A stretch of DNA of 64,000 bases from NCBI GenBank assembly GCA_021292105.1, contig CM037871.1, forward strand, positions 14,300,196 through 14,364,195. Direction: 5' to 3'. This document shows positions 2,327-62,845 of this stretch, one piece after another. This DNA comes from Anadara kagoshimensis. Its lineage: Eukaryota > Mollusca > Bivalvia > Arcoida > Arcidae. Position numbers and translations under genes: made by a program. The stretch's first letter is position 1; each line of letters begins with the position of its first letter. The notes under the pieces were generated by a model. It was not told the origin of the DNA, did no database searches, and saw only the letters and a list, made by a program, of their open reading frames with translations.

Positions 2327-3323
2327 CAGGTCAATGTCAAAATTAACGTCGCCCCTACTGTGTCAAAATAAACGTCACCCTGCAGCCCTGCAATTCTGCC
2401 AGATTTGCAGCAAAAATGTTTAAACTGAAGTTCCATAATTTTTTTCTTAAAAATTTGCCCCCCTTAAATTTACAAATTGTCGTTGCATTCTCAATATCCA
2501 GCATTTCTTTCAGTTGTTGAGGTAAATTTCAGTTCTGAAACATTATTTAAAACATAGCCTCAGTTCGTTCCATTTCCTAATGGAAACACAAAAATTCCCG
2601 GCAAATAAATTAAAAACCGTTTAAAATATGACTCAAATATTTACAAAATCAGAAAGGTTTGTCATCATTTCGCGGCAGCCAAAAGGTACAGTTGAAAGAA
2701 GATTGTGGTGTCTGATCAAAGAAGCTATTAAGGCAAGTTAACATCCTTCTTTATTGGTTTCATATATGTTGATTCTGTTGTTTTTTGACATTTGTCTTTT
2801 TTAAACAACACTGATTATCCTAAAAGGCTATGGCTCCTGCCCATAATTCCAGATCTACCAGGCGTTTCCTAGAGTCTAAACAAATTCATATTTTAGATTG
2901 GCCATCAAACTCGCCAGATATGAGTCCGATTGAAAATCTGTGGGATGCTTTGAAAAGGGACGTCGCAATGGACAATCCAAAATCGTGTAACGATCTATGG
3001 GAAAGCGTCAAAAAGCATTGGTACAGGATAAATAAGAACTATCCTGAAAAGTTATACGACAGTCTTCCCAGACGTGTTCAGTCTGTTATAAGAGTTCGTG
3101 GTGCCTCAACTAAGTATTAATGGTGTTTGTTTGTACCAAGGCGATATTAAATACTTAATGATTGGTTTCTTTGTCTTGTTTTCTATTTTATAATGTCGTT
3201 CATTTACCATTTAGCTCCAAATTATAAGTTTTTTTTAAATCAAAGCTAATAAGATAATTGATTTTCGATAGGGAGACGTTAATTTTGACACAGTAAGGGT
3301 GACCTTAATTTTGACATGACCTG
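2327..3323. mobile_element. Tc1/mariner-type DNA transposon, internally deleted
   Basis: A 997-bp element has terminal inverted repeats of about 55 bp. The left one starts CAGGTCAATGTCAAAATTAA and the right one ends TTTTGACATGACCTG. It is flanked on both sides by TA (2325-2326 and 3324-3325), the target duplication made by Tc1/mariner elements. It carries only the 3' third of a transposase gene (2830-3120). Known full-length relatives are about 1.3 kb or longer, so this copy has lost the N-terminal region and is probably immobile on its own. Confidence 0.85.
2830..3120 (+). pseudogene. Tc1/mariner transposase, C-terminal remnant
   Basis: The 96-residue open frame covers the end of a DDE/D transposase. 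Residues 1-6 (MAPAHN) correspond to the usual DNAPAH block with its catalytic Asp and Asn lost. Residues 23-41 (LDWPSNSPDMSPIENLWDA) are the hallmark stretch holding the third catalytic acid in the SPIENLW region. The remainder matches the family's usual C-terminal helical tail. An in-frame stop (TAA, 2821-2823) lies just upstream. About two thirds of the protein, including the DNA-binding helix-turn-helix domains and the first catalytic Asp, is absent. The ATG is therefore a chance start and the gene is dead. The family assignment is firm; activity is excluded by the missing residues. Confidence 0.85.
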
Positions 3324-11837: not shown

Positions 11838-12335
11838 TACAATCACATTGTTTTTGCTTCAATGCAGTGTTTGACCTCGATTCTACTTCATGACTCGATG
11901 CAGTTGAATGGAGCACGCGAGCAGGGAATTGTACCATTTAATGACGTCACTGATACTAGTACGTTATTAGTTGCCGTGACGCTGTTTTGGTACCGTAATG
12001 TCAGCCTTTGTCGGAACATTGTGGGCGTGGCCGGCGATACGTCAATGATACCGACAGTTGGAACAGTCAATTTTTAACGAGGTAGTTATAGTTGTTTTTC
12101 TTTTATGAAAAGTGTTAAAATGTCAGTTTATATTTTGTGTTTATTTGAAAAAGTTACAAATGATTGTAAATATAAGGAATGTCATTTACTTTGACTGTAC
12201 TGCATGGAGTTATGCAGTAGAATGGACTGTCTCAAATAACCATGAACGCCTTCGGCTTTCATTTAATTTGAGACAGTCCATTCTTCTGCATAACTCCATG
12301 CAGTACAGTCAAAGTAAATGTCATTCCTTAAATAT
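11838..12335. mobile_element. Hairpin-bearing element E, unit 1
   Basis: Starts ACAATCACATTGTTTTTGCT and ends with a near-perfect hairpin at 12177-12330: arms of about 65 bp contain CATTTACTTTGACTGTACTG and its complement, and the tip is GCCTTCGGC flanked by TTTCAT. A consensus TGACGTCA sits at 11943. The next unit begins directly after the hairpin, so the two are a tandem pair. Compared with unit 2, about 105 bp are missing near 11925. Confidence 0.7.
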
Positions 12336-12337
12336 GT

Positions 12338-12985
12338 ACAATCACATTGTTTTTGCTTCAATGTAGTGTTTGACCTCGATTCTACTTCATGACTCCATGC
12401 AGTTGAATGGTGCACGCGAGTTTATTCTATGTCAATATTTGACGGATCGCTGACCACGCCCACAATGTTCCGACAAAGGCCTGGCATGCTTGAATTACAC
12501 GCAAAAGGAATGAAAACTCGGCCTGAATTGTACCATTTAATGACGTCACTGATACTAGTACGTCATTAGTTGCCGTGACGCTGCTTTGGTACCGTGATGT
12601 CAGCCTTTGTCGGAACATTGTGGGCGTGGCCGGCGATACGTCAATGATGCCGACAGTTGGAACAGTCAATTTTTAACGAGGTACTTATAATTGTTTTTAT
12701 TTTATGAAAAGTGTTAAAATGTCAGTTTATATTTTGTGTTTAAATTTATTTGAAAAAGTTACAAATGATTGTAAATATAAGGAATGACATTTACTTTGAC
12801 TGTACTGCATGGAGTTATGCAGTAGAATGGACTGTCTCAAATAACCATGAAAGCCTTCGGCTTTCATTTAATTTCATTTAATAACCATGAAAGCCTTCGG
12901 CTTTCATTTAATTTGAGACAGTCCATTCTACTGCATAGCTCCATGCAGTACAGTCAAAGTAAATGTCATTCTTTAAGTATTCCCT
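12338..12985. mobile_element. Hairpin-bearing element E, unit 2
   Basis: This is the same layout as unit 1 but longer. It keeps an inner inverted pair, CCACGCCCACAATGTTCCGA (12458) and TCGGAACATTGTGGGCGTGG (12609), which unit 1 lacks on one side. The terminal hairpin (12780-12980) has its 37-bp tip, built around AAAGCCTTCGGCTTT, duplicated in tandem. No protein is encoded. A third, truncated copy is at 23288-23370. Confidence 0.7.
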
Positions 12986-17001: not shown

Positions 17002-17556
17002 TGATTCTTTTATTTACATGAGCCGAGCCGTTACTAAAAATTCCTGTTTCGGCTTCATCCTTGCTTCACATATTATTTTATGCGACAAAATATAATCTGG
17101 ATAAGTGTTTACAATAGTAATTGTTTTTACGAAAAGGCGGGGTTCTTTATGTTACGTAGACATAACGGAAGAATTGACTATTTACGTATGTTAGTGCAGC
17201 CCAAGAAAAGATTGATTTTTGCGTAACCGGGATGAACAAAACTTATTTATTAAAGGAATATAGTGAACTATCTTAATGCATTTTCAAACTTTGGAAAAAA
17301 TTGACGTAATTTCAAACTTTAAATTCAACCCTTCCTTTGCCCTACCCTTCATTGAACCCATTGCGAACCTACGTAAATAATAAATGTTCTTGTTATCATT
17401 ACGTCACACGAAAGACATCGTCATTTTGTAAAAAAATTATCATTGTAAACACCCAGCCAAAATGCATTTTGGTGTATTAAAAAAATTATTATGCATGGAT
17501 TAGATCGACATTAGGAGTTTTAGCAACGGCTCGGCTCATGTAAGAGAAATGAATTT
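17002..17556. mobile_element. Long-TIR MITE (family I)
   Basis: A 555-bp element with inverted arms. The outer left arm contains TTTACATGAGCCGAGCCGTT (17013) and the right arm AACGGCTCGGCTCATGTAAG (17525). Similarity continues inward for roughly 150 bp (GTGTTTACAATAGTAATTG against its diverged complement near 17440). It has no open frame. One copy in this window. Confidence 0.7.
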
Positions 17557-20200
17557 TTGATTTTTAACCATGCTATTCAAATCTTTGAAATGTTAGCGTT
17601 GTTCTTTTTTTTGCAGCAGAGGAAACAGATAGTAGGTTAAACATTAGGTTAAATTGTTGATCAATTAATAAAATATTGTTCATCAATATGTTTTATTTTG
17701 CTAAATTTATGGGCTACTGGTTGTATTTTTTAAATAGCTGAGAGTCCTAAAATAGCACTATAATCACTAACCACTGTGTATTTACCTAAATGTTCGACGG
17801 GGTGTAGAATTGCTCATCAGTCGCCCTACGTTTGCCTTGTCTTGTCGTGTTTTGTTTGGCTGTTTTATCATTAACTTAAAAAATTCATAATAAAACTAAT
17901 CATAAATATGGTCCTTCAGTGTACAACGTAACACTCTATGACATTTCTGCAGAACTATTATTTGCATTATAGATGAAATTGCTTCAGTTTACGCTTTCCA
18001 TTAAAAATGACGTTTTTCCAGGAGTTTTCGACGTAAACGTCAGGGGATATTGATCACGTGATACGCTGGCGATTTCCATTAAAAAACTTTCGATAATACC
18101 TAGCGTTTAAACTATGGACACAAATGTATGTAATAAATATTTGTTACATAACGATTTTCTTGCTCGAAAGTGAAAAAAATGTGTCCATCACCATCTCATA
18201 CACACGTCGATGACAGATTAACCATATGATGTAATGGATAATGTAAATTGTCTAGAACAAAGAAAATACTTTACATATTTACTGCACGTGTAATTAGTAA
18301 CAACTATTTATTCACCACACAACAAGGCAATCAAAATGCTCGTTTAGGTATTTCGAGTTACACTAAATTATTATATATAAAAACGTGCATACTGGCCTCT
18401 AGTCTCATTTCCTTGCCACTGATTAAAGCTTTTTATAACTTTGTTTTGTGGATTGTGATATTAGCATTGACTGGTATGTTTGTTTTCGATTACCTAACAA
18501 TAATAAATGTTACAACATTCGTATTGCTTAGGTATTTTTTTAAACCAAACAGGTATCATTGGTGTTGCAAAGCAGCATGGCTTTTCTACTCAAAGCAAGT
18601 GTAGTTGAAAGGTTTGCAGTATTAATGATTATTTAAGAGTATCATTAATGTAGAACATGTTTATAAGGCTATTATAAGACATTAACCTGGTATTTAAAGG
18701 CACGTATTCTTTATAGAATTTCGGAATTTAATTTTGCAAAAACATTAGAAATGAATGTTGAGTACCGTTTATCAAATACATTTGTATTAGCACTCGGCCT
18801 CACTTTATTGATGGAAGTTAACGTCTTTTACGTAATTTGCAAGTTTCATAGTTTTTACTTTGTTACTTAAGGAGTTTTGGGTTAAACCTTTAGGTTTACT
18901 TTTAATATTTATTTTAATATGAATCTCCAAAAATAAACCCATCTAGCCAACAATAAAACAACAAGCAACCTGCAATTTGTCAACTAGAACAAAACTAAAT
19001 TATCAAAAAGACAAAATTTGCTTATACAAGAATACAGATAAATGTGGATTGCTTAGCACTTCTTTACTATGTTATTTATATCAAGAGGGATTAGATGTGA
19101 CAAAGATGTAACCGTTCTTTAAGCTGAAACACATTTATCAAAGCTGTACTGTAATTACCAAGACACAGATGTTTTATTATATTTTTCTATCGTTTTCCTA
19201 CATTCTTCTTTAGAATAAACTAATCGTTTCGTTTCTTTCCTTTAGGCAATACATCAATAATCTTTGACAATGAAACTAACATACAAATAAAGAAAGAAAA
19301 ACATACGGGCATCATTAAATTCATAGTTCGAAAAGTTGGACCAGATGAGTTCCGAATAATTACTCTATGGTCTACCGTTAAAGCATGAATATTTCTTCAT
19401 AAACAATCAATATCACCAAGCTGGAAGACAATTAATCTGGATGAACCCATCAGCAGAATGGTTAATTAGCTTGATACAAACTTTATCTTTCTTTAAATTA
19501 TTGTTAATATTTGCTAGCAGGAAGAAGTGTGCTTCTAATTTTTCCGGGGCCCCCAGCCTCACTTCCCGGTTGAAAGGTCACGTCGTATTAAACTATGTTT
19601 TTTTAGTTTATACTCCGATTACCAGTTTAAATGCAATTTGAACATTTAAACTGGTATGTTAGTTTTTATTATGACAATGTCTTCATCAAACAATTTATAC
19701 ATTAGATATATAATGCATTTATTACATGGTCAACTCTGATTACCATTGTATAAACCGCACCAATAGTTTTCTTTTTAGCTTCACGGAGCCTATATGAAAT
19801 TTAAACCAAAATATACAATAGTTCAAATACAAGCTAAGTAAAACTGACAAACAGAATGTTTATTTGTTTCTGAAAACATGCTCTTATGAATATACGTATA
19901 TATATTTGCTCTTATACAGGCTAAAGTTTTACAATCTTCCATAACTAGAGTATCCTTAACTTAATTTTGGAAAATTTTGACATTATTTTAGGGTTCTACA
20001 AATGCAGGATAAAAAACTTTAAAAAAATTAAAATAAATATATATATAGATGCTATAAGTTTAGAGTGAACTTCAAAATAGTATCTTAAATCCATGAATAT
20101 CTTGAAAACAAAATTATTCAGATTTTAAATTTGTCTGATTTACATAAGGAAAATATTAGTTAGGGTTGTGAAACTGGGGTCAGCTACTGTAAACAGAAAA
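17557..20200. other. Intergenic stretch with repeat A scraps
   Basis: Minus-strand repeat A fragments lie at about 18440-18520, 18785-18865 and 19495-19600 (CACTCGGCCTCACTTTATTG; GCCCCCAGCCTCACTTCCCG). The 118-residue frame at 18248-18604 overlaps one of them and has no recognisable domain apart from hydrophobic stretches, so I do not call it a gene. Confidence 0.45.
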
Positions 20201-20290
20201 AGATGGAGCTTAATTTGGTAAAATATATTTTGGTGCTTTGGAAAGCTTTTCAACATCTTCAAAATAATTTTGGTTTCATAATTTTGGTCC

Positions 20291-20338
20291 AAGCACTACT
20301 GATGAGGAATTGTATTCCGAAACGGCCGTCTTGTGCTG
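20291..20338 (+). ncRNA. Type I hammerhead ribozyme, short stem III
   Basis: All parts of the catalytic core are present in the right order. CTGATGA is at 20299-20305. Stem II is GGAAT/ATTCC with loop TGT (20306-20318). GAAA is at 20319-20322. A minimal stem III is made by the palindrome ACGGCCGT (20322-20329), and cleavage would follow the C of GTC at 20330. Stem I is formed by AGCACTA (20292-20298) and TTGTGCT (20331-20337), six of seven positions paired. Very short stem III is typical of hammerheads in animal retroelements (Penelope-like elements, retrozymes, schistosome satellite DNA); such motifs act best as dimers. No second copy and no reverse transcriptase are visible nearby, so it is probably a relic of such an element. 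Activity is inferred. Confidence 0.8.
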
Positions 20339-20399
20339 TATATAATATGATATTTAGTTGTAAATAGTATTTGTGTGTAATAAGAACTTTTCTTTTGTA

Positions 20400-21329
20400 T
20401 ACGTGCAAAAAATATATTTCCAAAGGTTAGATAGCATAATGCACCCGCCTTTCCTTAAATATAAAAGAAGATAAAGAATTACAAAAGTACTTTTAACATT
20501 AAACCGAGATCTGCTGAAGCAGCCAGCCAACCCGAAGACTATAAAGTTTGTTTATCATCAATGTTATTGACACTCATACTTTAAACGTTTGAACGCTTAA
20601 AATATTTATTATGTAGTTACAGTCAAGCACAACAAAAACCTTGAATGAAACGATCTCTCTGGTTGTGACTCCACCCTTATTTCATCATGTCACAGTAGCA
20701 AATACGTATGCGTCGTGTTATATGCCATGTGGCATACAACGCGCTCCCACTGATTTCAAAACAAAAAATATTCAAAAGTATTATTGTGTAATTATTATTA
20801 AAGATATTTACACGAATAGTAATAATTCACAATAATTGACTTAAGATGGGTGATGTTAACAAAACAAAACAATAATTTGTGCTCAAATAACGTCATGATT
20901 CAGACTTAGCTTTGACATTGTAAACAGGTATGAATAATGAGCACTTATGTAAGAGAAGAACAAACAAAACATCATATTTATTAATGAAATATGGGTTTCT
21001 TTTAACTCCTAGGATGTTTTATTAATATATCAACTTGACGTTGTTGCATAATAGTTTCATGTATTCATCATCGATGCCTAAAGAAACACATATTACGGTA
21101 AATTCTAATAACACTTTCTGTTGAAAGAATTGATTTTTTCCGTTTTTTATTTTTATTTGTGCAAACTAGGTGTTCAAATCTACAAACATTTTACTATCCC
21201 CAAAATACAACATATTGTTGTATTTTGTGTATGTTAAAGCAGCTATATCAATATAAAACTGCAGTTCACATTATAATTCTTATTTTATTCAATGTTTTAT
21301 GCTACTTTTTAAGACTATAAAGCTACGAG

Positions 21330-21330
<1 letters not shown>
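20400..21330. other. Intergenic stretch, nothing recognised
   Basis: AT-rich without tandem units or a supported frame. Confidence 0.4.

Positions 21331-21373
<43 letters not shown>
21331..21373. repeat. (TG)n microsatellite
   Basis: About 21 uninterrupted GT dinucleotides. Confidence 0.95.
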
Positions 21374-21375
<2 letters not shown>

Positions 21376-21670
21376 ATTTATAAGCCGATGGACAATAACA
21401 GCTTCTTAATTTTTAGCAGAAACAACTTACAAGGAAACACATAAAAAGATAATGATAAAGTCATATTTTACTTTGTATTTTTCCTGAGAAAAATGTAATT
21501 ACCGATTCGACTATTAAAAGCTCGTAAAATTAATTAATTACTACCTTGATCTAAGTAAGAGGTTGTTGTGGGTAGTAGTTTATGAACAACTTTATGAAAA
21601 TAAGCTGCTTCATTAGGTTTGTCTAAAAGTACGAGTACTTTAACATCCTCGAACTGTAAGTTTAGCCTGT

Positions 21671-22018
21671 AGAGTTGAGTTGAGTAATGGTATTTAACGT
21701 CCCGGTCAAGAATATTTCACTTATATCGAGCCGTCGCCAGTTATAGGTGAATGTGCAGAAATTTGTGTTTGTGCGTTGCGTGGATGGAATTATACAGCAA
21801 GGATCTTTAGCGTGCCAAGCCCGCCGTGCTACGGGACATCGTTAATTTTAATTTCCTATCCGAAAGAATTGTTAATTTCATTTTGTAATGCCGAGTGCTT
21901 GGCGAAAGAACAGTCACTACCCACACTTTCAAGTCTTGGGTCAGACCTGGCCGGAGATCGAACCCACGACCTACCACTAACGGTGAGAGCACTCTACCAA
22001 CTGAGTTACCGCAGTGGT
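21671..22018 (-). mobile_element. tRNA-derived SINE (SINE-2), full length
   Basis: On the minus strand the head reads CCACTGCGGTAACTCAGTTG with the B box TGGGTTCGATCTC. The body contains CTTTCGCCAAGCACTCGGCA and CACGCTAAAGATCC. The tail is CGATATAAGTGAAATATTCT followed by GGGACGTTAAATACC and (ACTCA)n. It has the same plan as 60901-61230. Confidence 0.8.
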
Positions 22019-22104
22019 GAAATTTAGCTTGCTGTGTGTTCTACATGCAGTTTATTCAGTTTTAATTTGTGTTCAATTGATCATAATAAAGTATATATTT
22101 AAAC

Positions 22105-22108
<4 letters not shown>

Positions 22109-22149
<41 letters not shown>
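22109..22149. repeat. Poly(T) run
   Basis: About 40 consecutive T. It could be the A-tail of a minus-strand retroposon, but no body is identifiable beside it. Confidence 0.9.
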
Positions 22150-22151
<2 letters not shown>

Positions 22152-22214
22152 GATTTGCACTTATGTTCAAAGAGCAATGACTTCAAGGAAAATGAGCAGA
22201 CCAACTCATGTTAA

Positions 22215-22330
22215 AGAGATTCGCATCTACTATCTATGTTGAAACTTTGCACGAAGTTTTGTGAAAAAGTGCTTCATAGTTTTGGAGAATATGATGCGCA
22301 TGGACGGACGGACGGAAGGACGGGAACTCT
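22215..22330 (+). repeat. Repeat ending in (GGAC)n
   Basis: AACTTTGCACGAAGTTTTG leads into GCGCATGGACGGACGGACGG. The same plan (degraded body followed by GGACGGACGGAC) appears at 45125-45405, so this is a fragment of a dispersed family that I associate with bivalve genomes. Confidence 0.5.
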
Positions 22331-22334
22331 AATT

Positions 22335-23285
22335 TAATACTAGTGCCATTTATTCCTTTATTTTTAACCAGCAGCGCACCTAACTCAGAATACTCCATAA
22401 GGAAGGAGAGTTGTACTGAGAGATAGATATGCTAGTTTTTGGATTGTGATTAGAACTTGGGACTGAAATGATGATTTTGGAGATTTAGTTTCACACCAAT
22501 TTGCTCTATATTCGATGAGCTATCAAATAGATTTTAAAATTCGTATTTTGGAATACATTTAAGAATATCTACTAGAATTGAACTTTTTTTTTTGCCGTCG
22601 TTCACATTATTGATTTTAAATCTGAATTATCAACTTATATATATTTCGTTTACCAAAATCCAGCAATATGTCAGATTAGGATGCAAGAATGGTCTTTTAG
22701 AAATCAAATTGTACGAATCTCGTGAAATCGTTTCATATGTCACGTAATGGAATAATACTATATACATTTATACACTATTATATCACTGACTTAACAATTT
22801 ATTTATGCTAAATACAGACATATAGACTGAAAAAAACGGATTAAGATTGACATTTATCCTTAAATATATTGACGAAGTTATTACTCTTTCCATAACCTTA
22901 ACGCTCGCACATTTACAAATATAAAATAAGTTTATTTTTGGAAGAGAAAAATTATGGAATAAATATTTAGGTTTCGGAGAGTAATTGACAAATAAAAAAG
23001 GCAATTTTCATTCTAGAAGAATGTCATGGGCTTATGCTTTTAATCCATTATTTTGCCAAAGGACCGAATTTGATAGGCCTTACTAAGTCATATTCAACAT
23101 GACATGAGTGCAAAAATTGTGCTGTTACGGTGTTTGTGGACAACAAGACAAACTGTGAAACATGTTTTACAAATAATAAATTTAGTTATGTTTTAAAAAA
23201 CATTTTAACATTTTTTTTTTAATTTTCAATATATGAAATCACCTCACACAAAGGATAAACTTTATCGACATATATTTACATTATT
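22335..23285. other. Intergenic stretch, nothing recognised
   Basis: AT-rich sequence; no supported frame or repeat unit. Confidence 0.4.
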
Positions 23286-23287
23286 TT

Positions 23288-23370
23288 ACAGTGCTTTTGC
23301 TTCAATGCAGTGTTTGACCTCGATTCTACTTCACGACTCGATGCAGTTGAATGGAGCACGTGAGTTTTTT
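23288..23370 (+). repeat. Element E, 5' fragment
   Basis: TTTTGCTTCAATGCAGTGTT, GACCTCGATTCTACTTCACG and AATGGAGCACGTGAG are nearly identical to 11848-11923. It ends there without the hairpin. Confidence 0.7.
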
Positions 23371-23960
23371 CACAGCGTAAGAATACACTTCAACAGGGAC
23401 CTTGACCTTTAACCTCTGCAATCACCCCATTGATCGATAGCGGTCAGTCACCAATACACATGTAAATCCGCAAGTAGATTTTTCAGCCATGCCATCGATG
23501 CTTACAAATTTATCGTTCAGTAATTGTAGTTTTAATTTTAATATGAAAATGTAACAGTTATTATTTAATTGATTATTGAATTATGAATTAATTAAAGCTT
23601 AGTAAAGTAATTATTTTTCTTGCTTCGTATGTCAGTTGTTGTATATATATATATATATATATATATATACGTTTTGAACGTTTTCATTTAGAGTAGTTGA
23701 TAGCGTGAGTTAAGCAAAACTACCGCAAACGAGGCAGCTTAAGACACGTGTCTGTTTTAGCAATCATGTATTTAATAAAACTTCATAAAAAGCGGTTTTT
23801 ATACCCACTTTATGGAATAAAAATCCATTCGTTTCCAAGTACAAACATCTGCGCATATGAGAGTTACAAAAAATCTCTTTCATTAATGCAAAAAGCATGT
23901 CGTCTGCAATTATTTCCGTAAACATGACAATGCATCTGGGTTTGTCGTAGGAAGTACATG

Positions 23961-24185
23961 AGGAGTTGAGTGAAGTTGCATGTTTTAAGTCCCAGTCAAG
24001 ATTATTTCACTTATATCAAGGCGGTCAGCTCAGGGATGGAAAGTTACTATTTAGCAGAAAATTTCAATTTTGGCAACTCAGTATACAATCGAATTAATTG
24101 TTAAACTATTAATAAGCAAACTTTATGGAGTAGTATAATTTGGTAATATTCTTTCACTTATATCGAAGCGTTCAGTTCTGGGATA
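23961..24185 (-). repeat. SINE-2/3 tail fragments
   Basis: Two tail pieces with TTTCACTTATATC and the CAGTT/CAGCTC block follow one another (23961-24080 and 24145-24185). The second is interrupted by unrelated sequence. The tRNA head is missing from both. Confidence 0.5.
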
Positions 24186-24268
24186 CTTGATCAAACATGA
24201 ATACCCATAAAAAATAACCTACCTGCGGCAAGCGAGCAGGAGAGCAGGCAAACTTTCTCAAAACTACA

Positions 24269-24388
24269 GTACAGACCTGCCGAAAGTTTAACAAATGGTT
24301 AACATACACGCGTTTAGCATCTACTCCCGAGTGGCTAAGATATGGATAGCTACAAGCCAAAAAAACTCCTCGGAGATAGCAGCTTATA
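24269..24388 (+). repeat. MITE B, half copy
   Basis: ACAGTACAGACCTGCCGAAA GTTTAACA is the terminal repeat. The inner part CCGAGTGGCTAAGATATGGA TAGCTA agrees with other copies. The right terminal repeat is missing. Confidence 0.65.
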
Positions 24389-24534
24389 ATTAGGAAAAGG
24401 TTGTCAAAATAAAGAAAATAAGGCGCTGTACTGTGTGTACAAATTTGTATCGTTACGGTGTATTATGGCGAATCACATGTAACTTTTCAACATTTTTAAA
24501 CGGACTTCCTGTGCTTATATAATTTAATTATATA

Positions 24535-24846
24535 TTGGTGTTTAACGTCCGATTTAAGAATATGTCACTTATATCGAGACTTCGCCAGTTATAGGCGAAG
24601 GCGCTTTGCGCTGGTGGCATTATACAGCAGGGTTCTTTATCGTGTCAAGCCCACCGTGACACGGGACCTGGTTTATTTAAAGTTCCCATCCGAACGAACC
24701 GTGACTGTAATTTCGTATCGCCGAGTGTTTGGCGAAAGAACAGTCACTACCAACTTTCAAGTCTTGGGTCAGACCCGGTCGGGGCACGAACCCACGACCT
24801 TTCGCTAACGGTGCCAGCACTCTACCAATTGAGCTATCACAGTGGT
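24535..24846 (-). mobile_element. tRNA-derived SINE (SINE-2)
   Basis: Minus-strand head CCACTGTGATAGCTCAATTG with GTGGGTTCGTGCCCC as B box. The body has CACGGTTCGTTCGGATGGGA and GTGTCACGGTGGGCTTG. The tail CGATATAAGTGACATATTCT is followed by GGACGTTAAACACC. Confidence 0.8.
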
Positions 24847-25106
24847 TATATTCAACTTCGTTGAATAAACAAGCAAATATAATGAATATAGTTCTCTCCC
24901 CCCCCCTTCCCGACAGTATGTATACTGACCTGGGACTTGTACTTACCTTCAAAGGACCGAAACTGCCAATGAAATGAGCAAACGAAATCGTGTTAATGAT
25001 ATTCAATTCTCTTATCAATGTTGATAATCATTTTGGACTAGATTTCAATGGATAGATAAAAGGACGAAAATTCGAGTTCAGGTTCACTTCTTTGTTAAAA
25101 AAAACG

Positions 25107-30479: not shown

Positions 30480-31720
30480 AGTATATGTTTTGAGGCTCTG
30501 AGGGTAAGCATTCTTGTAGCAGCATGTACATAACCTATAAAAAGTTTTACAAAATGGCACAATGAAAGTCCATTAATTTTTTGTATGTATGGAAAATACT
30601 ATTTTATGATATGGGCTTAGTTTGATGCTCTGGAAGCGCATGTTTCGTAGCTCTGAGGGTAAGCATACATGTACTTGTAGTGACATACATGTTCACAGCC
30701 TATAGAAAGCGCATAACCTATACAAAATTGCACAGTGAAAGTTTCACAATGCCAAAACCATTAACTTTCCGCATGTATGAAAATACTATTTTATGATATT
30801 AGCTTAGTTTATTGCTCTGGGACCATTTGTTTAGATGCTTTGAAGGTAAGCATACTTGTAGTTGCAAACATTCACATAATGAAAATTTTATAAAATGAAA
30901 CAGTAAAATTTTCACGATAACATAACCATTAACTTTCCGCACGAATGAAAAATACTATTTTATGAATTGGCTTAGTGTGGAAGCGCGTGGCCTAGTGGTT
31001 AAGGCGTTGGACTCATGATTCGAAGGTCGTGGGTTCGATCCCTGGACCGGGCGATGTGTTGTGTCCTTGAGCAAGACACTTAATTTCACGTTGTTCCAGT
31101 TTACTCAGCTGAAAAAATAAATGAGTACCAGCAAAATGCTGGGGGTTAACACTGCGATGGACCGGCGTCCCATTCAGGGGAGAGTCTTGTACTCTCAGTC
31201 GCTTAACGCCACAGAAACCGGGATAAGCTCCGGCCTGATGGGCCTAATGGCTCGGGACAGACTTTTAACTTAGTTTGATGCTCGCTTGAAACGTGTATTT
31301 CGAAGCTCTGGTGATAGCATACTATGTAAAATGTCTATAGATAGTATTTATAAACTACGAAAATTACCGCACAGTGAAACTTCACTTTCTTAGTACGTAT
31401 ACCCTTTACGTTTCACTAATGAGTAACACTGTAGAATGATATGTGCTTACATTGATACTTTACGTCAATGTGTCTCAAAGTACTGGGTAATGCGTCCCGA
31501 GACACTGGGGTATACGTAACCATACTTGCTAGTGACATTGCCAAAAATACTTACAGAAAATAACACTTTGGAATTTTCCGTACAATAAAAACTTTACTAT
31601 GCATATGCTCCTATGCTTTTTTACACTTACATGCATATGATATGTTATCACATGTGCTTGCGTTGATGCTTTAAGCCACTGTGAGTAAGTTTTTGTAATG
31701 ACATTGTCAGACAGTATACG
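30480..31720. repeat. Satellite-like array, about 155-185-bp unit
   Basis: About six to seven diverged units. Anchors recur: GGCTTAGTTTGATGCTCTGG, a GAAGCTCTGAGGGTAAGCAT block, ACAGTGAAA and AAAATACTATTTTATGAT. Spacing is 155-185 bp. A SINE interrupts it at 30974-31263, and the array resumes afterwards with CTTAGTTTGATGCTCG. Confidence 0.7.
30974..31263 (+). mobile_element. tRNA-derived SINE (SINE-4), inserted in the array
   Basis: Head GCGCGTGGCCTAGTGGTTAA GGCG, then an anticodon-loop-like CTCATGA, and the B box GTGGGTTCGATCCCT. The body GTGTCCTTGAGCAAGACACT TAATTTCACG is a SINE core found in many aquatic animals. It ends ATGGCTCGGGACAGAC. The array motif CTTAGTGTGG/CTTAGTTTG flanks both sides. 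Confidence 0.8.
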
Positions 31721-33905: not shown

Positions 33906-35010
33906 AACCAATTTTGGATAATTTTCATTCTGAACATTGAACAGTTTAGACTTGATTATCATATAAGAACGTTTCCCTACTATTTAAGCACCGATTTGAT
34001 ACTGAGCTATTATAATTACAAAGGAGCAGTTCTGCTTGGTGATCCACCATATCTGTCATATATAACAGTTTTCGAATTTAATATTAAAATACATTAAAAC
34101 TGTTATATTACATATCCTTTTAAGACTTGTTTTCTCAAGCCTCATACAAACAAACAAAATCTTACACCAGTGCAGAGCACATTTATATACTGTCAAGTTA
34201 GGGTAGAATGACACTGAATCTCCGATCTCTTTGGGTTGCTTCAAATGCCCATTGTGATGTTTGCAAAAAAAAAAAAAAAGATTGATGTCCATGTCGTGGT
34301 TGCTTGTTCTGTAAAAGGCGCTTGTGTTGTTCCTCATAACATATGTCAGATATTTAAATTAGCCCATGTCTCCTAAAACCTAGTCTGGGCCCCAAAACGT
34401 TTACACATTTTAGCTTTTTATTACATTAAAACTTCTTGTTTAACTAAGCTGGACCCCTAACTCAAATTAGTTAAGCTTCATCCCTGTATATGAAGCTGCA
34501 AATGAATTCTTTAGGGATCAGTCGAATGTTTTTATTGAACTTGATGGTGAAATTTATTTCAGTGATGTTTAAGATGATGCTTGTAATATTTGTTCTCCAA
34601 AACACTTCGTGACTACATGGCATCTCCTTTCATGGACAATTCATTGTCAAATTTGTAAAAGTAAATTTTCTTTACATTCTGTGGTTGGCTTTTGTTGCTC
34701 AAGCACTTTATCTTTGAAAACTAGTAAAACGTCAAATTCTGGTGACAGTTTATCACTAGTTTTTGTGCTTTTGTCAAATAAATCTCTTTCATTTACAACT
34801 TTTGATCTTTATTGGATAATTATTGCAAATGAATGAGGGTCCTGGTGGTTAATAGTGGTTGGCTTCTTTAACCGGTATGTGTTAGATCCCGGATTGTAAC
34901 ACCATATGTGGTGAGTGGGTTTCCCTTACTATTGGCACCTGTTTGTTAGCTCGATGCCAATACAATGAGATGTAATGTTAATCTGTGACATTGTATATCA
35001 GTGGACAACA
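33906..35010. other. Intergenic stretch, weak hints only
   Basis: A small hairpin (ATATAACAGTTTT against AAAACTGTTATAT) sits at 34059-34110. On the minus strand 34650-34810 stays open for about 54 codons with charged composition, but no motif supports a gene. A weak tRNA-like piece may lie near 34845-34905. Confidence 0.35.
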
Positions 35011-35589
35011 CTATATAAATATTACATTTCTGACAGGGTGCCAGTACATATTGTCACCTCGAGGAAGCATTGTTTGGCGAGGCGATAGCCGAGGTTGACA
35101 ATGCTTTTCGAGAGGTGACAATATGTACTGGCACCCTGTCAGAAATGTAATATTTATTTTATTACACCGAATGTTTGTTTTATTTTACCAATACATGATG
35201 TGCATCCTTCATCTTTAGTAATGTCTGTACCAATTTTCATCCAATTTATCGACAGAGAATGCCTCAAATGCCCAGTCATACATTTGAGCCAAGAAATTTA
35301 AGAAACGCATCCACGGCCCGCTTAATGATCCATTTAGTTGATGCAGGGTCTTTAGACTTTAACAAATTGCTAAGACAGTGATTGTCAACTTCGACAAACA
35401 CCATCCGTTGTTGTTACAGACGAATGTAAACAATATCAATAACAATGAGACGCTTACCGTAGACACAACTGAAAACATGTTTTGTTCAAAGCGCTGACGT
35501 GATCCAGTGAACGGAGGCAACTCGAACAAAAGTACTGTCACATAGTCACGCGCAGCGCTATGTGACATTATAAATTTTATGTGACAGTA
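35011..35589. mobile_element. Palindrome-headed element F, unit 1
   Basis: Opens with a 142-bp palindrome (35015-35156). Its arms run from TATTACATTTCTGACAGGGT to ATTGTCACCTCGA and back, with the tip GGCGAGGCGATAGCC. It then continues with about 430 bp that end TTTTATGTGACAGTA. The minus-strand peptide region corresponding to unit 2 is frameshifted or stopped here (a TGA follows the SNV residues). Confidence 0.75.
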
Positions 35590-36166
35590 TATAAATATTA
35601 CATTTCTGACAGGGTGCAAGTACATATTGTCACCTCGAGGAAGCATTGTGTGCCGAGGCGATAGCCGAGGCTGACAATGCTTTTCGAGAGGTGACAATAT
35701 GTACTGGCACCCTGTCAGAAATGTAATATTTATTTTATTACACCGAATGTTTGTTTTATTTTACCAATACATGATGTGCATCCTTCGTCTTTTGTAATGC
35801 CCATACCGATTTTCATCCAATTTATCGACCGGGAATGCCTCAAATCCACAGTCATTTGAGCCAAGAAATTTAAGAAACATATCCACTGTCTGCTTAATGA
35901 TACGCTTAGTTGATGCAGAGTCTTTAGACTCTAACAAATTGCCAAGAAAGTCATTGTCAACCTCGACAAACATCATCCGACCGTTGTTGTTACAGACGAA
36001 TGTAAAAAATATCAATAACAATGAGACGCTTGCCGTAGATACAACTGAAAACATGTTTTGTTCAAAGCGCTGATGTGATCCAGTGAAGGGAGGCGACTCG
36101 AACAAACGTACTGTCATATAGTCACGCGCGTTGCTATGTGACATTATAAATTTTATGTGACAGTAC
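35587..36166. mobile_element. Palindrome-headed element F, unit 2
   Basis: Direct tandem copy of unit 1, with palindrome at 35590-35731 and the same 3' end. Its minus strand keeps an open frame of 135 codons (35761-36168). Period between units is about 576 bp. Confidence 0.75.
35761..35976 (-). pseudogene. Fragment like the N-terminal domain of Crypton/DUF3504-type proteins
   Basis: From the Met at 35976 the peptide runs MMFVEVDNDFLGNLLESKDS, then ASTKRIIKQTVDMFLKFLGS, and ends near the palindrome after about 71 residues. A short acidic lead, then a STK-x7-F-x2-FL helix pattern, is what I know from the N-terminal helical domain of tyrosine-recombinase-derived proteins (Crypton, DUF3504, ZMYM/KCTD1-like), which are abundant in bivalves. 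The catalytic domain (Arg-His-x-x-Arg-Tyr) is absent. Unit 1 carries the same segment with a premature stop. It may be a Crypton remnant or a captured host exon. The family match is by recognition of pattern, not by a search. Confidence 0.4.
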
Positions 36167-37776: not shown

Positions 37777-39120
37777 ATGGCGGAATCGCAGCAGACGTTG
37801 ATTTGCGATACATGTAAAGAAGATAACAAATGCGTTGATGCCTTGGTTTTATGTCGAGAATGTAGGGACCTTTTCTGCTGTGAATGTATGTCTATGCACA
37901 GGGCAATACGTAGCACAAAAGACCACCATCTGATACAAGTAGCCGATATAAACAGCGAAACTAAAGTGGACCCTGTGATTCCATTTTGCGACGTATGTGA
38001 AACAACAGGTAAAGGCCAAAAGAGTGCCGAATGTCTTTGCAATGATTGCCGGGATTTATATTGCCAGCCGTGCAGACAACACCACATGAAGCTAAGAGCG
38101 ACCAAAAATCACCTTCTATTTGATATATTCCAGCCTACTGTTATAACAGGCGGTTGCACAGTGGAACAGTCAATATCCGACAATAGTATTCAAGTATCAT
38201 CAGATTTCGAGGGATTCGCTTCGCAAGAAGATGGGAATGCTGTATGTGCTCAATTTGCTGTTTCCACTATAAAAAGTTCTTCGAACGAAAATGAACGGTC
38301 AGACAATCAACCAAAAGCTGCTGTCCAGATGGTGTTGAGTAAAGACGACATAGAAAAGATTTCTGTCAAAATTGTTAGCACCTTTAATGCTGCCACTGTG
38401 ACCGATGGGGAAAAATGCCACTTTAAAGGAATCGTCTGCTTATCAGATGGACTAACAATTATAGGTGATAGGTATAATTCAAAGCTTAAACTAGTTGATG
38501 GCAATGGCGGTATTATCGACGAAGCTCAAGTCACTGGTACGTTATCAGGGCTGACAAAAATATCTGACAATACTTTTGCAATCGTTCATACCCAAAATGT
38601 AACTTTTTATACGGTTGATAACAGGCGTTTCCGTGAACAGAGACATTTTAAACTCCAAGATCGAGGTCTGGGGATCTGTTATAATGGTTCCTCGCTTGTT
38701 GTCATTCATAGAGATTGCATTTCTGTGATTTCAATGGATGGGGTGCTACTAAGGCGTATTTCTGAAAAACCGGCAAACCTTAGTTGGTTTGTCTGTGCCG
38801 ATCCGGAAACCAGGGATATTTATTTTACTTCCGTGGAGACAAATATATTGCTTTGTTTGTCGGAAAGTGGTGACCATAAGTGGAGCACTTACATCAGTCT
38901 ACCACGTGCAGTATGTAGCTATGGAAACTGTTTTCTGACCATAACAGCACGTGGTGAGATCATACTTTGTACGAAAGATGGAGCTTTTAAGAAATCAATT
39001 TTCAAAGATGACAAGGAATTGGACTGTGCTGAATATATTATACATGATCCAGAAACACAACAACTATTTGTTATCAGAAAATCTAACAGTTTTGTTACTG
39101 TGCTGAAAATATCGAAATAA
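37777..39120 (+). CDS. RING-less double B-box (TRIM-like) protein with propeller-like C-terminus
   Basis: The 447-residue protein has two consecutive B-box-type zinc fingers. The first spans residues 10-51 (C10, C13, C26, C29, C34, C37, H41, H50/H51). The second spans 71-112 (C71, C74, C88, C91, C96, C99, H102/H103, H112). Residues 115-195 are low in order and Ser-rich, without the long coiled coil of classic TRIM proteins. Residues 195-447 look like repeated beta blades (SDNTFAIVH, NGSSLVVIH and similar), as in the NHL/propeller tail of TRIM2/3/56/71-type proteins. No RING precedes the B boxes, so ubiquitin-ligase activity is not expected from this protein alone. The start is well supported: ATAAGGATGG gives A at -3 and G at +4. 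The coding region is one exon. Such RING-less TRIM-like genes are greatly expanded in bivalves; the exact role is unknown, and signalling or innate-immune scaffolding is only an inference. Confidence 0.9.
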   Translation: MAESQQTLICDTCKEDNKCVDALVLCRECRDLFCCECMSMHRAIRSTKDHHLIQVADINSETKVDPVIPFCDVCETTGKGQKSAECLCNDCRDLYCQPCRQHHMKLRATKNHLLFDIFQPTVITGGCTVEQSISDNSIQVSSDFEGFASQEDGNAVCAQFAVSTIKSSSNENERSDNQPKAAVQMVLSKDDIEKISVKIVSTFNAATVTDGEKCHFKGIVCLSDGLTIIGDRYNSKLKLVDGNGGIIDEAQVTGTLSGLTKISDNTFAIVHTQNVTFYTVDNRRFREQRHFKLQDRGLGICYNGSSLVVIHRDCISVISMDGVLLRRISEKPANLSWFVCADPETRDIYFTSVETNILLCLSESGDHKWSTYISLPRAVCSYGNCFLTITARGEIILCTKDGAFKKSIFKDDKELDCAEYIIHDPETQQLFVIRKSNSFVTVLKISK

Positions 39121-50409: not shown

Positions 50410-50945
50410 CCTCTTAATCGTATAGCTCGAATGTTCGAGAACATCTCAATAGTATAACTCGAATATTATTATCCGAGGTCTTATTGATAGTATAGTATAG
50501 CTCGAATATTCGAGGCCCTCTCAATAGTACAGCTCGAATAGTCGAGGCCCTCTTAATAGTATAACTCGAGTATTCGAGGCCCTCTAAATAGTAGTACAGC
50601 TCGAATAGTCGAGGCCCTCTTAATAGTATAACTCGAAAAGTCGAGGCCCTCTTAATAGAATAAATTGAGTATTCGAGGCCCTCTAAATAGTAGTACAGCT
50701 CGAATAGTCGAGGCCCTCTTAATAGTATAACTCGAATAGTCGAGGCCCTCTTAATAGTATAACTCAAGTATTCGAGGCCCTCTAAATAGTAGTACAGCTC
50801 GAATAGTCGAGGCCCTCTTAATAGTATAACTCGAAAAGTCGAGGCCCTCTTAATAGTATAACTCAAGTATTCGAGGCCCTTTCAATAGTACAGCTCGAAT
50901 AGTCGAGGTCCTCTTAATAGTATAGCTTGAATATTCGAGGTTGAC
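50410..50945. repeat. Minisatellite, 32-35-bp unit
   Basis: About 16 units of CTCGAATAGTCGAGGCCCTC TTAATAGTATAA with small length changes. Each unit holds the palindrome CTCGAATATTCGAG or a variant. A higher-order period of about 100 bp (three units) explains the 150-codon minus-strand frame, which I do not call a gene. Confidence 0.9.
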
Positions 50946-55540: not shown

Positions 55541-56716
55541 TCAAACGACAGTGCTTGTCTGTGATGACGTCACATTACGTCCATAATATTTTACATTGCA
55601 CCATAATTTTTGGAACAGGCAATTATGAATTGAATGGAACATGTTTTTAATCGTCGATCTGAAACGTTTGACTGTCGCAAGGTAGATAAAAATATTACAG
55701 GAATATTGGGATAATCCAATTTCGTCGATAATCTGTTTAATTAAGAAATATGTAAAATAATTTCTCCATGTAGGATCGGTAGCCATTTCTGATACCGGAG
55801 TATAAACAGAACCAATCGGTATTTCGTGTTGTATTGTATAAGCAATCGTTGCAGATAAAGTTGTAAAAATTCTGTAAAATGATACTACCAATAAAGTCAA
55901 GGTTGACGGAGAAAGGTTGGATTCACGGATACCAACTTTACAAGTACTATTTCGTCTAAGCTCTGAACTCTGTTCCATAAAAGCAATGCTTTTATTTGCC
56001 GCCCGCAATACAAATATATTGAGAACAAAAACTGTGAACGGAAAAACACCAAACATAACAGTGTCAATGGTCCAGGACCAAGTAGAGAAGAATTCCGATC
56101 GAGGTCCGGTGCAATCGTCGTTTTTAAAAATCCAACCTTCATATTGCACAGCTGAAATCATCAGAGCGAACAGAATAATGGCACAAATTTCCTTCCGTGC
56201 CCTTCTGTGACGAGAAAACCTGTCACATTTAAATGGCCGTATCGTTGATATGAATCGTTCTAGAGTAAATCCAAACACAAGTAATGGACTCATGTATTGT
56301 GTAAACATGTAAAAGATAAAGAAGACGGGACACCATATTGGAACTCCCAACGTTGGAATCATCCAAGCAAAATGCAATTCCTTGAACACGTGTAAGCACA
56401 ATAACAACAAATCACATATGGCTAACACGATAAGATACAAAGCTGAAGTGCTGTTTTTCCTCATCTGTTTTTCATTCCACACTTTAATTGTGATAATATT
56501 CCCGAAAAATCCAATGAAATACCAAAATGGCGTCACGAATCTATCCACAAACACCGCTGTAGGCGCATAAATACTGGCAATACAGTAAAACCATGGCCAT
56601 TCGTGAATGTGGGTTTCATTTGTTCCAGTAGATTGACACAACTGGGAAATATTTAGATCTTCACTAGAATTAATTGAAAAAGGCAAAAACGTCGAATTCT
56701 GCGTCGTTTCAGCCAT
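55541..56716 (-). CDS. Rhodopsin-class GPCR, orphan peptide-receptor type
   Basis: A 391-residue seven-transmembrane receptor in one exon. The N-terminal tail (1-60) has four N-glycosylation sequons (N7, N16, N22, N33). Approximate helices: TM1 61-80 with the GN pair (N73), TM2 91-113 with the family aspartate D102, TM3 126-152 with C129, TM4 176-196, TM5 214-238 with P226, TM6 270-295, TM7 321-346. C202 in the second extracellular loop can bond C129. The DRY motif is E153-R154-F155; NPxxY is N341-I-F-I-Y345, with Pro replaced; TM6 lacks the usual CWxP. These changes are common in lophotrochozoan peptide-receptor-like GPCRs (FMRFamide- or TRH-receptor-like). Ligand and G protein are unknown. 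The ATG context (C at -3, G at +4) is moderate; no upstream in-frame Met competes. Confidence 0.92.
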   Translation of the reverse strand: MAETTQNSTFLPFSINSSEDLNISQLCQSTGTNETHIHEWPWFYCIASIYAPTAVFVDRFVTPFWYFIGFFGNIITIKVWNEKQMRKNSTSALYLIVLAICDLLLLCLHVFKELHFAWMIPTLGVPIWCPVFFIFYMFTQYMSPLLVFGFTLERFISTIRPFKCDRFSRHRRARKEICAIILFALMISAVQYEGWIFKNDDCTGPRSEFFSTWSWTIDTVMFGVFPFTVFVLNIFVLRAANKSIAFMEQSSELRRNSTCKVGIRESNLSPSTLTLLVVSFYRIFTTLSATIAYTIQHEIPIGSVYTPVSEMATDPTWRNYFTYFLIKQIIDEIGLSQYSCNIFIYLATVKRFRSTIKNMFHSIHNCLFQKLWCNVKYYGRNVTSSQTSTVV

Positions 56717-60846: not shown

Positions 60847-61232
60847 GATCATAGACCAACTTATATTCTAAAAATAGATAGATGAGATGAGTGAGTGAGT
60901 AATGGTGTTTAACGTCCCAGCCAAGAATATTTCACTTATATCGAGACGTCGCCAGCTATAGGCGAAAGTGCAGAAATTTTGCCTGTGCGTTGCGCTTATG
61001 GCATTATACAGCAGGGTTCTTTAGCGTGCCAAGCCCACCGTGACACGGGACCTCGTTTATTTTAAGTTCCCATCCGAAAGAACCGTGACTTTCATTTCGT
61101 AATGCCGAGTGCTTGGCGAAAGAACAGTCACTACCCACTTTCAAGTCTTGGGTCATACCCGGCCGGGGTTCGAACCCACGACCTCCCACTTACGGAGCGA
61201 GCACTCTGCCAACTGAGCTTCCGCAGTGGTTT

Positions 61233-62384: not shown

Positions 62385-62845
62385 GATGTCGGAATATTTC
62401 ATTTGTTGATGCTGTAAGCGGAAAGTATTTAAATTTTTGATCACCGAAAGAGTCCGTTTGTTGTTGTCGTAAGCGGCAAGCATTCCGAATTCCGAAACAG
62501 TCAGTTTGTTGTTGATTTAAGTGGCAGATATTGCAATTTCTGAGAGAGTCCGTTTGTTATGGTTGTAAGCGGTAAAAATTCCGACTTCCAAAACAGTCAG
62601 TTTGTTGTTAATTTAAGTGACTAGTATTCCAACTTCCGAAAAAGTCCGTTTGTCGTTGTTGTAAGCGGCTAGTATTCCGACTTCCGAAAGAGTCCGTTTG
62701 TTGTTGCTGTAAACGGCTAGTATTCCGACTTCCGAAAGAGTCCGTTTGTTGTTGTTGTAAGCGGCTAGTATTCCGATTCCGAAAAAGCCCGTTTGTTGTT
62801 GTTGTAAGCGGCAAATATTCAGATTTCTGAAAGAGTCCGTATGAG
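62385..62845. repeat. Minisatellite, 48-bp unit
   Basis: About nine to ten units of TTCCGAAAGAGTCCGTTTGT, TGTTGTTGTAAGCGGCTAGT and ATTCCGAC. The central units keep exactly 48 bp, so on the minus strand a 16-residue motif (RNTSRLQQQQTDSFGS) repeats in frame for about 68 codons. No start context or splice signal supports translation. Confidence 0.85.

Follow-up and report, generated by a model that had tools for sequence, protein, structure and literature searches.

The window, by which we mean the whole 64-kb stretch of DNA that was analysed, carries on its plus strand a compact hammerhead-like motif of type I layout, the parts of which are as follows.

20292–20337 (+): hammerhead-like motif, type I, 46 nt, from the sequence and an RF00163 alignment at 20293–20336 (25.9 bits)
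20292–20298 (+): 5' strand of stem I, AGCACTA, by direct reading 6/7 complementary to 20331–20337
20299–20305 (+): catalytic core CUGAUGA (CTGATGA in DNA), C3 to A9, from the sequence and the RF00163 alignment
20306–20318 (+): stem II hairpin GGAAU-UGU-AUUCC, 5 bp with a triloop (GGAAT at 20306–20310, ATTCC at 20314–20318)
20319–20322 (+): core GAAA, G12 to A15.1, from the sequence and the RF00163 alignment
20322–20329 (+): stem III, ACGGCCGU, either a hairpin of 2 bp with a GGCC tetraloop or an 8-bp helix between two copies
20323–20328 (+): CGGCCG, followed by T20329 (U16.1)
20330 (+): C17, with putative cleavage at 20330/20331, from the RF00163 alignment position and the core numbering of PMC3088659
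20331–20337 (+): 3' strand of stem I, TTGTGCT, forming six pairs with the 5' strand

The original prediction had named CTGATGA, a 5-bp stem II, GAAA, GTC and a stem I paired at six of seven positions, and direct reading finds each of them in its place and in the right order, although the 47-base span given for the whole comes down to 46 nt for the motif proper. Every base of the core (C3–A9, G12–A15.1, U16.1 and H17) is present in the sequence and in the RF00163 alignment, and the core-adjacent pairs 1.1-2.1, 10.1-11.1 and 15.1-16.1 (A20298-T20331, G20306-C20318 and A20322-T20329) are complementary, which is a statement on complementarity only. The short stems are free of multiple mispairs; the single mispair is a U x U at the second pair of stem I (T20297 x T20332), the other six of its seven positions being paired. 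The strand ends leave from stem I, which is the type I order. Our motif criteria (core bases, core-adjacent pairs and mispairs) come from PMC3088659, and with its full core and matching core-adjacent positions the motif passes these three filters. At the level of the motif, the features of a candidate type I hammerhead that can be checked in sequence are in place.

The eight bases of stem III, ACGGCCGT (20322–20329), are a self-complementary palindrome. By direct reading, the hairpin that they can form consists of A20322-T20329 and C20323-G20328 closed by GGCC; four pairs in one molecule are impossible because the loop would vanish, and a stem III of 4+4 therefore needs two copies. The 4-bp palindromic stem III originally proposed is thus a real palindrome, but as a hairpin it supplies only two pairs. 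Likewise, the description of the ribozyme as complete-looking suits the core and the type I layout better than the remainder, given the two-pair stem III, a loop 2 of three bases (the triloop on stem II), the absence of any compact loop 1 on inspection of the sequence and the other folds predicted below.

A covariance search of 81 bases against 4,227 Rfam families aligned the motif end to end with the type I hammerhead model RF00163 (model positions 1–45 of 45) at 25.9 bits and an E-value of 6.8e-5. This check, which had been suggested together with the prediction, gave a divided answer: the E-value is significant, but the score does not reach the gathering cut-off of 34. Rescaled by arithmetic, the E-value corresponds to about 1.3e-5 for one family in 64 kb and to roughly 0.2 per Gb. 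The motif has the core of RF00163 and the same palindromic style of stem III (consensus ACGcgCGU versus ACGGCCGU here), and it differs in its sub-threshold score, its one stem I mispair and, by inspection, the lack of a compact internal loop 1. Three other Rfam scans (the window at the gathering cut-off, 701 bases, and the whole window by E-value) did not report it; since scaled E-values of about 6e-4 (701 bases) and about 0.05 (window) lie within the limits of the latter two, we attribute these two omissions to stricter filters. Readings of the stretch as a small nucleolar RNA (SNORD82 at 12.9 bits, and SNORD123) or as a lncRNA (JPX_2 and FTX_2) were rejected, all four models scoring far under their cut-offs.

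An A+T-rich gigabase genome might yield a few such motifs by accident, to be picked up when many windows are scanned. We estimated this expectation with a graded pattern-and-stem descriptor in an order-3 Markov simulation (14,531 windows, 1.86e9 strand-bases), which returned 70 matches at the loosest level. Requiring at least 5/7 of stem I to be paired left 15, and requiring at least 6/7 left four, i.e. around 16 and 4 per Gb for the last two levels. These rates leave room for an accident, as do the RF00163 score under the gathering cut-off, the fact that neither a copy nor an element was seen around the motif, and the bare core pattern: if wide gaps are allowed, CTGANGA-GAAA-GTC is no rarity in the window, with three occurrences where 0.87 would be expected (three are reached in 6 of 100 shuffles). 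The full form is another matter, for a stem I of at least 6/7 combined with a stem II of 5 bp or more appeared in none of the 14,531 simulated windows, whereas the motif reaches every level of the descriptor and is its sole match on both strands of the window, bearing out the claim that it stands alone there. The low rescaled E-value for RF00163 also speaks against chance, as does the palindrome, a form that stem III takes in many type I hammerheads from nature (PMC3088659): one of at least 8 nt was found in none of the 70 loosest simulated matches, the descriptor itself making no demand for it. A smaller simulation of 60 windows with wider loops gave two matches at the loosest level, one with a stem I of at least 5/7 and no strict one. 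The motif exceeds chance expectation, and we regard an accidental origin as unlikely, if still to be reckoned with.

Real DNA gave a similar picture. We searched public collections with a scaffold derived from the window itself (CTGATGAG-N6-20-CGAAACGNNCGTC) and found it at 62 loci (61 in genome_contigs and one in viral_contigs), several of which are mutually related (e.g. in Pseudomonas and Caballeronia) and hence do not amount to 62 independent trials. Two of these loci had only a stem I of at least 5/7, two others only a stem II of four pairs or more, and none both; the scaffold therefore occurs without the helices, and only in the window was it seen together with both of them. A strict pattern had no match in viral_contigs, a third pattern none in the public collections, and phage records showed no match to 20100–20700 at an E-value of 1e-5. 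Such absences say little, since the collections searched consist, by their description, of viruses and prokaryotes.

In the isolated 46-mer, the outer pairs of stem I had predicted probabilities at 37 C of 0.985–0.995 and stem II of 0.845; the core-adjacent pair 20298-20331 had 0.08 and the hairpin form of stem III 0.002. In 91, 201 and 401 nt of context, the probability of stem I at 37 C was 0.157, 0.0 and 0.006, respectively, and in longer predicted transcripts the hammerhead fold is mostly out-competed. The surrounding 71 bases have a minimum-energy fold other than the hammerhead, with a stability not above that of shuffled sequences (z -0.12), a further point on the side of chance. Because folding programs ignore the energies of the hammerhead core and of tertiary contacts, a poor predicted fold counts only weakly against activity. 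A pair of copies was predicted to gain 11.9 kcal/mol at 37 C by joining through ACGGCCGU, which 60 of 500 shuffles matched; as shuffles gain equally, the idea of a dimer leans mainly on the palindrome and on the literature on type I hammerheads (PMC6155905 and PMC3088659).

A retained, isolated hammerhead could also serve the host, for instance in processing a non-coding or intronic transcript, and lone hammerheads conserved in amniote introns (PMC6155905) offer a precedent. The core is complete even though a parent element is not seen, which would fit such a role, but the weak folding predicted in context and the canonical loop-loop contacts, none of which were seen by inspection, do not, and no gene or exon was recognised nearby in the fragments scanned (see below). 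We therefore consider a host function very unlikely. A narrower version, in which the host kept for its own use a single-copy hammerhead after loss of its parent and its action depends on two transcripts or alleles joining via ACGGCCGU, appears to us hardly credible.

Within the window we found no second hammerhead, no tandem unit and no clear copy of the flanks. The nearest thing to one was an inverted match 1.6 kb upstream (20308–20322 versus 18719–18733, 15 nt, 87% complementary), which was discarded as a decayed inverted hammerhead: the minus strand there lacks CUGAUGA and stem I, and the alignment score is 22 against a window top of 28. The 370-nt flanks on the two sides fold like shuffled sequence: z is +0.38 for one and +0.45 for the other, and 68 and 69 of 100 shuffles, respectively, reach or exceed their stability. 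Together with the missing second hammerhead and flank repeat, this led us to reject a retrozyme unit at this locus.

For protein-coding remains we scanned every stop-to-stop fragment of 38 aa or more within 17300–24600 (66 in total). Outside this stretch, 74 fragments of 55 aa or more were listed with starts before 32000, those rich in one dinucleotide being left out, and 64 of them were scanned (the 10 omitted overlap kept ones in another frame or strand). Neither the first set nor the second, which extends up to 32031, gave a match to a reverse transcriptase (RT) or GIY-YIG domain, and a nearby Penelope-like gene was accordingly rejected for the translated fragments scanned; the first set matched 16 families, all weakly, the best being a zinc finger (E 0.00019). 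Beyond the region of these sets, in 32000–64000 (132 fragments listed), five ORFs were scanned, and exons shorter than the thresholds escape detection. The motif itself has no link to a reading frame, the ATG inside CUGAUGA opening one of 21 codons only (MRNCIPKRPSCAVYNMIFSCK). The ORFs recognised by Pfam lie at least 17 kb from the motif; they are a long ORF with a B-box match (TRIM-like) at 37777–39117 (+) and one with a rhodopsin-type receptor match at 55541–56716 (-). Such gene types, along with the tRNA-like dispersed repeats described below, suggest a molluscan host.

Hammerheads are small self-cleaving RNAs, and those of this general kind are abundant in animals. Minimal type I motifs number thousands in many metazoan genomes, most of them dispersed in non-coding DNA and part of them in the pseudo-LTRs of Penelope-like elements, and they usually lack the non-conserved bases of helix III (PMC7761336). 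A single mussel genome holds about 5,000 type I copies, in two families without most of the archetypal loop-loop bases (PMC7229834), and inspection of the motif shows no canonical loop-loop contacts either. According to the same paper, a stem III of two pairs and a tetraloop has been likened to invertebrate hammerheads, and the motif resembles the metazoan non-LTR retrozymes described there in its type I order, its two-pair stem III with tetraloop and its low G+C surroundings. Those retrozymes are tandem repeats of 150–450 bp and strongly self-paired, unlike the locus of the motif, where we found neither tandem or dimeric repeats bounded by hammerheads nor, in the 370-nt flanks, strong self-pairing.

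With the minimal hammerheads of Penelope-like elements (PMC7761336 and PMC11167929), which are also known as dispersed copies, the motif has in common its shortness and, as far as inspection shows, no canonical tertiary contacts, whereas theirs usually do without a helix III and here one is possible. Copies of Penelope-like elements carry an RT/GIY-YIG gene next to the hammerhead-bearing pseudo-LTR, and in the fragments scanned up to 32031 we found neither an RT nor a GIY-YIG match. By this comparison, helix III of the motif looks like the two-pair and tetraloop form of invertebrates rather than like an absent one. The original prediction had read the short stem III as the form of animal retroelements, among them Penelope-like ones; the Penelope-like link turns out to be loose, given what PMC7761336 says of helix III and the likeness to invertebrate hammerheads noted in PMC7229834.

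Taken together, we think it likely that the motif is a minimal type I hammerhead brought in by a retroelement, either a non-LTR retrozyme or a Penelope-like pseudo-LTR, the rest of which has decayed or was never copied. With only 0.2 to a few such motifs per Gb expected by chance, a relic is likelier than an accident if the host genome is rich in such elements. Against this stand the score below the cut-off and the Rfam scans that did not list the motif, the lack of a copy in the window and of an element in the fragments scanned, the flanks that fold like shuffled sequence, the weak folding predicted in context, a two-copy energy gain that shuffles match and a helix III that differs from the minimal motifs of PMC7761336, which usually have none. 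We class the locus as a hammerhead-like motif only, one that most probably derives from a retrozyme or Penelope-like element, and do not count it as a member of either family or of RF00163 at its cut-off.

A special case within this reading would be membership of a retrozyme or Penelope-like family that is still alive and present in many further copies across the genome. The core, the palindromic stem III and the A+T-rich context, as in metazoan retrozymes, are what such a family would show, but the window contains neither another hammerhead nor a repeat unit, so that the locus lacks a tandem arrangement, and the flanks are not highly self-paired; we find this version rather improbable.

The motif of a decayed element, as we prefer to see it, would have arrived inside the retrozyme or pseudo-LTR, with the remaining sequence lost since or left behind in copying. 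Should the plus strand be transcribed, stems I, II and III would hold C20330 ready to attack its own phosphate, and the RNA would be cut between 20330 and 20331. We infer that cleavage would work best when two copies pair via ACGGCCGU, as in tandem copies, because the hairpin form of stem III has two pairs and the sequence is perfectly palindromic; a single copy would probably be slow, weak or silent.

Dispersed minimal hammerheads being already known, the motif is a further instance without special context, one more type I member of a class counted by thousands in animal genomes (PMC7761336). It is mildly unusual in joining a retrozyme-like helix III to otherwise minimal surroundings in which no element was recognised. 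Were copies or conservation to turn up, the motif could contribute to dating the persistence of hammerheads beyond the loss of their elements.

Several repeats and repeat-like features lie elsewhere in the window. One of the 64 fragments scanned outside 17300–24600 matched the DDE_3 transposase (E 1.4e-8); judging by its translation, this is probably the one at 2824–3117 (+), a Tc1/mariner-like remnant. Nested, near-perfect inverted repeats at 12170–12975 (arms of 65–68 nt, 95–97% complementary) form long hairpins that several microRNA-precursor models match under their cut-offs, and they probably represent a MITE-like hairpin transposon. Two tRNA-model matches, one just over the cut-off at 30986–31049 (+, 30.3 bits) and one under it at 61156–61227 (-, 25.4 bits), are not called as tRNAs by ARAGORN; because the latter lies in a dispersed repeat with further copies at 21665–22030 and 24513–24858, both are probably tRNA-derived SINEs. 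Tandem duplication is seen at 35008–36165, where blocks of 272 and 185 nt are each repeated at a spacing of 576 bp with 94% identity, and tandem arrays occupy 50492–50940 (periods of 32/99 bp) and 62444–62840 (period of 48 bp).
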